Source of the DNA: Halostella limicola
Lineage (GTDB): Archaea > Halobacteriota > Halobacteria > Halobacteriales > Natronoarchaeaceae
Assembly: GCF_003675875.1 (NCBI RefSeq)
Contig: NZ_RCDI01000003.1
Coordinates: 310,001-374,000 of the forward strand
DNA: 64,000 nt
Direction of reading: 5' to 3'
Shown here in pieces: positions 19,717 to 19,851 of the stretch. Both the position numbers and the translations under genes were made by a program. Position 1 is the first letter of the stretch; every line of letters starts with the position of its first letter. Below the pieces are notes generated by a model. It had not been told where the DNA came from. It searched no databases and was given only the letters and a program-made list of their open reading frames with translations.

Positions 19717-19742
19717 TTGCAGGGGCTAGTGAGCCCCTACAA
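19717..19742 (-). promoter_or_regulatory. 11-bp hairpin overlapping the end of the ilvB leader ORF
   Basis: In the minus-strand RNA, bases 19742-19732 (UUGUAGGGGCU) pair with 19727-19717 (AGCCCCUGCAA) across a four-base loop (CACU). All 11 pairs form, one as a G-U wobble. The stem contains the last sense codons and the TAG stop of the leader ORF. No U-run follows, so a classic intrinsic terminator is not obvious. Ribosome position on the leader ORF would decide whether the stem forms. Confidence 0.6.
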
Positions 19743-19818
19743 TGATCGCGAGAAGGATCGGAAGGACGGCCCCGCCGCTCGCCGACTGCGTGCGAACGGT
19801 GGTCGGTTGCCGCCTCAT
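19726..19818 (-). CDS. ilvB leader peptide rich in Ile/Leu/Val (putative)
   Basis: A 30-residue ORF opening MRRQPTTVRTQSASGGA and ending VLPILLAIIVGAH. Eight of the last 13 codons specify Leu, Ile or Val. Several (CTT, CTT, ATT, GTA) are codons rarely used in this GC-rich genome. A TATA-like box about 25-30 bases before the ATG means the leader is probably translated from a leaderless transcript. It lies about 140 bases before ilvB, the first gene for branched-chain amino acid synthesis. The layout mirrors bacterial ilv leader peptides. It could alternatively be a tiny membrane peptide. Confidence 0.55.
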   Translation of the reverse strand: MRRQPTTVRTQSASGGAVLPILLAIIVGAH

Positions 19819-19842
19819 TGTTAGTCCTCTCATGTTTGCCGG

Positions 19843-19851
19843 CGATATAAC
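19843..19851 (-). promoter_or_regulatory. TATA-like box of the ilvB operon
   Basis: On the minus strand this reads GTTATATCG, an excellent haloarchaeal box A. The expected start site about 27 bases downstream falls near 19820, two bases before the ATG of the leader ORF. The ilvB mRNA would therefore carry a leader of about 235 bases. Confidence 0.6.

Follow-up and report, generated by a model that had tools for sequence, protein, structure and literature searches.

Ribosome-mediated attenuation is a textbook bacterial mechanism. The bacterial ilv/leu attenuators (ilvL, ivbL, leuL and the actinobacterial ilvB leader) consist of a short leader ORF with end-product codons, placed before a GC-rich hairpin, and the haloarchaeal locus described here is built likewise: a leader ORF upstream of ilvB, which acts early in isoleucine, valine and leucine biosynthesis, carries codons for the end product of the pathway. 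In a full-text search of the open-access literature, we found no report of conserved ribosome-mediated attenuation in Archaea. For haloarchaeal leuA2 (HVO_1510), a start-codon problem has been flagged, and slippage and leucine dependence were suggested by the authors (PMC8305020). A Haloferax TSS map tabulates the uORFs of long 5'UTRs and lists none before ilvB, in a table that spans only 5'UTRs of 150-250 nt (PMC4983044); the Haloferax volcanii uORFs in its Table 2 include one of 26 aa before HVO_2948 (pheS) and one of 23 aa before HVO_A0127 (tryptophan--tRNA ligase).

The leader region upstream of ilvB

The window, a stretch of 64,000 nucleotides of the Halostella limicola genome, carries leuA2 and ilvB on its minus strand with a leader region between them (Table 1). 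An earlier note, made from the letters of this stretch alone, had described a TATA box, a nearly leaderless 30-codon ORF (uORF1) and an 11-bp hairpin over its stop codon, and had proposed an attenuator. The description was right at all points checked: TATA box and ORF are present on the minus strand, and folding recovered the stem UUGUAGGGGCU/AGCCCCUGCAA, with 11 pairs including one G.U and a loop of 4 nt. Among the window ORFs of the minus strand, uORF1 translates as MRRQPTTVRTQSASGGAVLPILLAIIVGAH* and stops at TAG 19728-19726; besides ATG 19818, it has a second in-frame ATG at 19833. Its final 13 codons specify V L P I L L A I I V G A H, and a recount gave the same eight Leu, Ile or Val codons as before. 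They include CTT, CTT, ATT and GTA, and the rarity ascribed to these codons was borne out by the window's own ilvB, which uses each of the three zero times.

Table 1. Coordinates of the features found at the leuA2-ilvB region of the window
Feature	Position	Strand	Remark
leuA2, gene upstream of ilvB leader	21144-19960	minus	conserved N-terminal frame without in-frame start codon
ORF B, bridge ORF, -1 frame of uORF1	19960-19580	minus	start at leuA stop (TAATG), TGA overlaps ilvB ATG
Palindrome GCAATCGTTGC, candidate operator	19875-19865	minus	57 nt 5' of leader ATG
TATA box TTATAT	19850-19845	minus	internal leader promoter, 32 nt 5' of ATG 19818
uORF1, 30-codon leader ORF, end ...AIIVGAH*	19818-19726	minus	strict or variant form in 143/145 loci
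uORF1 control codons ATT GTA (Ile-Val)	19743-19738	minus	Ile precedes GTA in 133/138
Hairpin, conserved core GGGGC-loop-GCCCC, with uORF1 stop	19742-19717	minus	near-invariant G-C pairs
G-free C/U-rich stretch 3' of hairpin	19719-19705	minus	base composition across 88 loci
ATG2 and 26 codons of ORF B (MSSTHPLTRQYRPTSSHPATAAGEPR*)	19660-19580	minus	stop overlaps ilvB ATG
ilvB, acetolactate synthase large subunit	19583-17790	minus	NCBIfam TIGR00118, 701 bits, cutoff 538

We compared 145 ilvB loci, made up of 80 from named haloarchaea, 48 from Halobacteria genomes picked because the strict motif was absent, 16 from genomes with the motif, and the window; a non-redundant subset comprises 88 loci. 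A leader was scored as strict when GTAGGGG[CT]...CCC was found in frame with a stop nearby. Such a leader, or a variant of it, lies upstream of ilvB in 143 of the 145 loci (140 strict, 3 variant), the variants being GTAGGGGGGTAAGCGCCCCC (L122), GTAGGGCC..GGCCCTAC (L130) and ATTCGCGTACGGGCC..GGCCC (L121). The leader is absent at only two of the 145 ilvB loci, L128, where no leuA was found upstream, and L136. The latter belongs to a divergent Halobacteria genome, in which leuA and ilvB directly overlap by ATGA without a leader, and this is perhaps the ancestral arrangement.

Of 194 Halobacteria genomes, 145 contain the pattern ATTGTAGGGGYN(1-10)CCCC, with roughly one copy per genome and mostly immediately 5' of ilvB, and its reversed version is nearly absent, so that the motif is found far beyond chance. 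In non-Halobacteria of the same phylum it occurs at background level only. Three additional motif matches (L138-L140) were rejected as leaders, as they look like chance. When the ilvB upstream regions are aligned, as the earlier note had proposed, conservation across the class is seen for the ORF, for the Ile-Val codons at its end and for the stem, with covariation at two stem pairs. ATG codons among the relatives are distributed over the frames as 187:12:4, in favour of the uORF1 frame. From this comparison, we regard it as nearly certain that the leader is a real, class-wide regulatory element.

A second, decayed copy of the leader was observed at L137 (G123:C2:396500-399500) and L157, with a TATA box, a uORF ending in LIVGV* and a hairpin. 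A truncated reading frame lies downstream of it, where ilvB could not be recognised.

Codon choice in the leader ORF

In the relatives, the last sense codons of uORF1 specify [IV]-V-G-[AV], usually as IIVGA, RIVGA or GIVGA. GTA follows an Ile codon in 133 of 138 loci, rarely one for Val or Leu, and the Ile codon is ATT in 86 of the 133. A search with unconstrained third codon positions recovered GTA in 80 of 80 named loci, and in the ilvB genes of these 80 relatives GTA makes up 0.4% of Val codons (ATT, 6.9% of Ile; CTT, 2.7% of Leu). The share of Leu, Ile and Val in uORF1, about 10% well upstream of its end, climbs to 26-58% between codons -8 and -2 and to 100% in the two codons that precede GGG. 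The stop follows 9 or 12 nt past the start of GTA in 131 of 138 loci. The run of branched-chain codons on which the attenuator proposal was built is thus of two kinds: the Ile-Val(GTA) end is class-wide, whereas the long PILLAIIV run is limited to the window's close relatives, and since only the Ile-Val end is fixed across the class, we take PILLAIIV for a lineage feature.

The outer stem positions G-U-A are paired in only 57% (G1), 33% (U2) and 58% (A3) of loci. That GUA is largely unpaired and yet invariant points to selection on decoding or on direct recognition, and not on pairing. Neither a third-position substitution excess nor a GC3 coding signal was found in uORF1; given the lack of such an excess, we infer the translation of uORF1, as well as that of ORF B, from frame and codon patterns only. 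These patterns suggest that the leader likely senses Ile and Val via ribosome stalling. The invariant GTAG also creates a +1-frame TAG stop at the base of the hairpin (window 19737-19739, minus strand) in nearly all loci, L121 being without it. This stop could catch ribosomes that slip at a hungry Ile or Val codon, which would offer another explanation for the fixation of GTA.

The hairpin and its pyrimidine-rich tail

The hairpin has the conserved form GGGG(C/U)-loop-(G/A)CCCC, with the uORF1 stop in or near the loop. Its four G-C stem pairs are essentially invariant among the relatives, and the loop, which measures 3-7 nt in nearly all loci, contains or touches the stop. Compensatory changes are seen at pair 8, which is C-G in 110 loci and U-A in 10, and at pair 7, where G-C is replaced by C-G in L130 and L121. 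The 237-nt leader folds with z = -2.75, and 2 of 200 shuffles were as good. The GGGGC hairpin is the only helix consistent among six family alignments, in which neither a competing fold nor an alternative partner for its 3' arm was found (cognate sequences paired no better than swapped ones), and between the hairpin and ilvB no further structure was consistent across families. We also considered sequestration of the SD by the C/U-rich linker and rejected it, as cognate linker-SD pairs were no better than swapped pairs.

About 15 nt past the stem are devoid of G and C/U-rich, and G accounts for 5% of the first 10 nt across the 88 non-redundant loci. TTTT follows the stem in 26 of these loci, against 8.7 expected by shuffling, and TTT is likewise enriched, both weakly; TTTTT occurs in 2 of 88 and is not enriched, which does not fit an intrinsic terminator with a U-run of the bacterial kind, from which archaeal terminators differ. 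The earlier remark that no U-run follows the stem therefore holds for TTTTT, but it passes over the C/U-rich, G-poor stretch and the enrichment of TTTT. In a Haloferax reporter, termination reached 95% with T5C and 59% with one hairpin alone (PMC7237163). Because a Haloferax hairpin alone gave termination at this level, termination at the ilvB hairpin element is plausible.

Promoter and candidate operator

In relatives where a simple pattern matched, the commonest distances from a TTATA-like element to ATG1 are 32, 30 and 29 nt. This nearly fixed distance predicts that the uORF1 transcript is leaderless or nearly so. A palindrome of the form GCAA-n(2-4)-TTGC is present in 24 of the 88 non-redundant loci, against 0.17 expected by shuffling, mostly at -57 from ATG1; in the window it reads GCAATCGTTGC and is a candidate activator or repressor site.

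A bridging reading frame from leuA to ilvB

A second ORF, which we call ORF B, overlaps uORF1 in another frame and spans the promoter, the leader and the hairpin, from the leuA stop to the ilvB start, with which it overlaps by ATGA. Between the leuA stop and the hairpin its frame is open in 135 of 136 loci, against 62 and 16 loci for the two remaining frames. In the non-redundant set, it is open from the leuA stop to ATG1 in 87 of 88 loci, from ATG1 to the hairpin in 88 and from the hairpin to ilvB in 79, where dinucleotide shuffling gives 41, 60 and 47 of 88, respectively. In Haloquadratum, with 48% GC, ORF B runs from the leuA stop to ilvB, and the other frames have many stops. At L137, where the decayed leader lies away from leuA, frame B is interrupted.

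The junctions at both ends are of the kind seen in translational coupling. The first ORF B start codon lies -1 to +7 nt from the leuA stop in 129 of 136 loci. At the other end, the candidate ilvB start is ATGA or GTGA in 139 of 139 loci, such starts having been preferred when picking, and the ORF B stop overlaps this start, is no more than 13 nt away, or overlaps the ATG of another ORF that in its turn reaches the ilvB start. Most exceptions to the ORF B-ilvB overlap keep the chain, by an ATGA at ATG2 or by an end no more than 13 nt from the ilvB start, and a handful do not fit. In 74 of 90 loci the frame opened by ATG2, the first ATG past the hairpin, leads into ilvB; in 7, ATG2 is itself the ilvB start.

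No Pfam or NCBIfam match was found for ORF B, its peptide is not conserved, and a third-position substitution excess is absent; the residues that are conserved coincide with the TATA box and the hairpin. Leu, Ile and Val make up 10.3, 7.7 and 7.4% of its three segments, against 13.7, 13.1 and 10.5% in shuffled sequences, and 2.7% of the part from ATG2 onward, against 7.0%. This low content would suit translation of ORF B under shortage of these amino acids. We read ORF B as a frame kept open to give ribosomes an unbroken path from leuA to ilvB. The comparison supports the attenuator idea. The overlapping frame lay beyond what the earlier note could see, and the bridge over the leader is new with respect to that suggestion.

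The start of leuA2

In 80 of 80 loci, the leaderless ATG upstream of leuA2 belongs to a small ORF that is out of frame with leuA, with a TATA box mostly 33-35 nt before it; ahead of the conserved VEFFQGTL, most loci offer leuA no in-frame start that would serve. In 73 of the 80 loci only one Leu codon occurs in the small ORF, a CTT (2.7% of Leu codons) within the invariant TCGAGTTCTTC. In the window, the small ORF occupies 21199-21110 and the main frame runs from 21144, both on the minus strand, and the one CTT is at the invariant TCGAGTTCTTC. Pfeiffer and Dyall-Smith reportedly drew attention to this difficulty with the start and put forward, as speculation, slippage and a dependence on leucine. 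The arrangement looks like a +1 frameshift at the Leu codon, possibly one that takes place on Leu shortage. This suggests control by Leu at leuA2 and by Ile and Val at ilvB, the two being joined through ORF B.

Proposed mechanism and alternative explanations

The sequence comparison shows conservation, codon choice, the stem, the placement of the stop, the openness of frame B and the overlapping starts. In our view, the ilvB leader is probably a ribosome-mediated attenuator of acetolactate synthase, set in an intergenic ORF by which ilvB is coupled to leuA. To a more specific version we give an even chance, namely a nested attenuator in which one RNA is read in two frames, Ile/Val-sensing ribosomes stop in the hairpin and ribosomes from a Leu-controlled leuA pass it, bringing three amino-acid signals to one gene.

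Translation in both frames, stalling, termination, the effect of the hairpin and the dependence on starvation are what we infer, in the following way. For the Ile/Val input, the internal promoter would give a leaderless transcript that starts with uORF1. With Ile and Val plentiful, the ribosome would read ATY-GTA, terminate at the stop in the hairpin and leave, so that the hairpin forms and ilvB expression is reduced, most simply because the hairpin and the pyrimidine-rich stretch after it promote termination of transcription, or else because re-initiation at ATG2 is limited. With Ile or Val short, the leading edge of the stalled ribosome would cover the 5' arm, no hairpin would form, and the polymerase or re-initiating ribosomes would reach ilvB. 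Judging from the size of the ribosome, one with an Ile or Val codon in the A site should cover the 5' arm and one at the stop should sit on the hairpin. For the Leu input, ribosomes finishing leuA on leuA2 read-through transcripts would re-initiate at the ORF B ATG, which overlaps the leuA stop, cross the leader in the other frame, meet no stop in the hairpin and arrive at the ilvB start that overlaps the ORF B stop. With both inputs, ilvB would be switched on when any one of its end products, Ile, Val or Leu, runs short.

Attenuation is favoured by the conservation in 143 of 145 loci, the presence of about one motif per genome, the fixation of Ile-GTA despite its rarity and the covariation of the stem, as well as by the Leu, Ile and Val content of the last nine codons, the fixed stop distance, the open frame B, and the loci L136 and L137/L157. 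It is weakened by the lack of a competing RNA fold, of a T5 run, of a third-position excess, and of an ilvB uORF among the 150-250-nt 5'UTRs of PMC4983044.

Conservation of GTAGGGG beyond the needs of pairing or of the peptide would also be expected if the hairpin were the site of a regulator, either an RNA-binding protein or a protein at a DNA operator, with uORF1 incidental. We consider this unlikely, because the loop varies between 3 and 7 nt, unlike an operator of fixed spacing, ATT and ATC alternate before GTA, a change silent in uORF1 that gives Cys or Arg in frame B, the uORF1 stop keeps a fixed place, and the enrichment in Leu, Ile and Val extends eight codons upstream. The peptide itself might be the sensor, its C-terminal IVG(A/V) stalling the ribosome on a metabolite and not on uncharged tRNA, and [IV]VG[AV] is indeed the only conserved part of the peptide; such an arrest peptide is quite unlikely, as it has no need of the rare codon GTA, which is kept, and the residues upstream vary freely.

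The overlap of the two frames invites other explanations. A programmed -1 frameshift from uORF1 into ORF B could take ribosomes to ilvB, as frame B is open on either side of the uORF1 stop and leads there, and would extend the frameshift suspected at leuA2, where the out-of-frame leaderless ATG needs a +1 shift (PMC8305020). We find this very doubtful, since no conserved X_XXY_YYZ slippery heptamer is present among the codons read at a usable distance (5-9 nt) before the hairpin, and in 129 of 136 loci frame B begins with a start codon of its own at the leuA stop, and it is open 5' of uORF1, neither of which frameshifting requires. That ORF B is an ordinary, fast-evolving gene whose protein matters would account for an open frame with overlapping start and stop, but this is highly improbable given the widely varying length, the lack of family matches and of a third-position excess, and the location of the conserved residues on the TATA box and hairpin. 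The attenuator set in a coupling ORF is the reading that we retain.

Comparison with known systems

An attenuator nested in an out-of-frame bridge ORF and conserved across an archaeal class would, to our knowledge, be without parallel. The region has no match among all 4227 Rfam models, even at E = 1, which does not fit a T-box or another Rfam leader; Rfam families also include cis-acting 5' leader RNAs, and the ilvB leader matches none of them. If the mechanism is true, a class-wide haloarchaeal attenuator would mean that Archaea make regulatory use of transcription-translation coupling, and, as the hosts are genetically tractable, it would offer a simple system in which to test this. A frame such as that of ORF B, kept for continuity and not for its peptide, would further mean that an open frame may be conserved without encoding a functional protein.

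Unlike the bacterial ilv/leu attenuators, the haloarchaeal leader has only two fixed control codons and a leaderless start, and its stop lies within the hairpin. Neither an antiterminator fold nor a U-run was found in it, a second open frame overlaps it, and it would operate with the transcription and termination apparatus of Archaea. Translational coupling by ATGA or TAATG is shared by the leuA-ORF B and ORF B-ilvB junctions, but ORF B differs from ordinary coupling in being a middle ORF without a conserved product, which crosses a promoter and another leader ORF. The closest haloarchaeal parallel to the two frames is leuA2 (HVO_1510, PMC8305020), which likewise has a leaderless ATG out of frame with an open main frame. 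There, the shift is +1 into a conserved protein, whereas at ilvB the main frame starts at the leuA stop and would reach ilvB by coupling.
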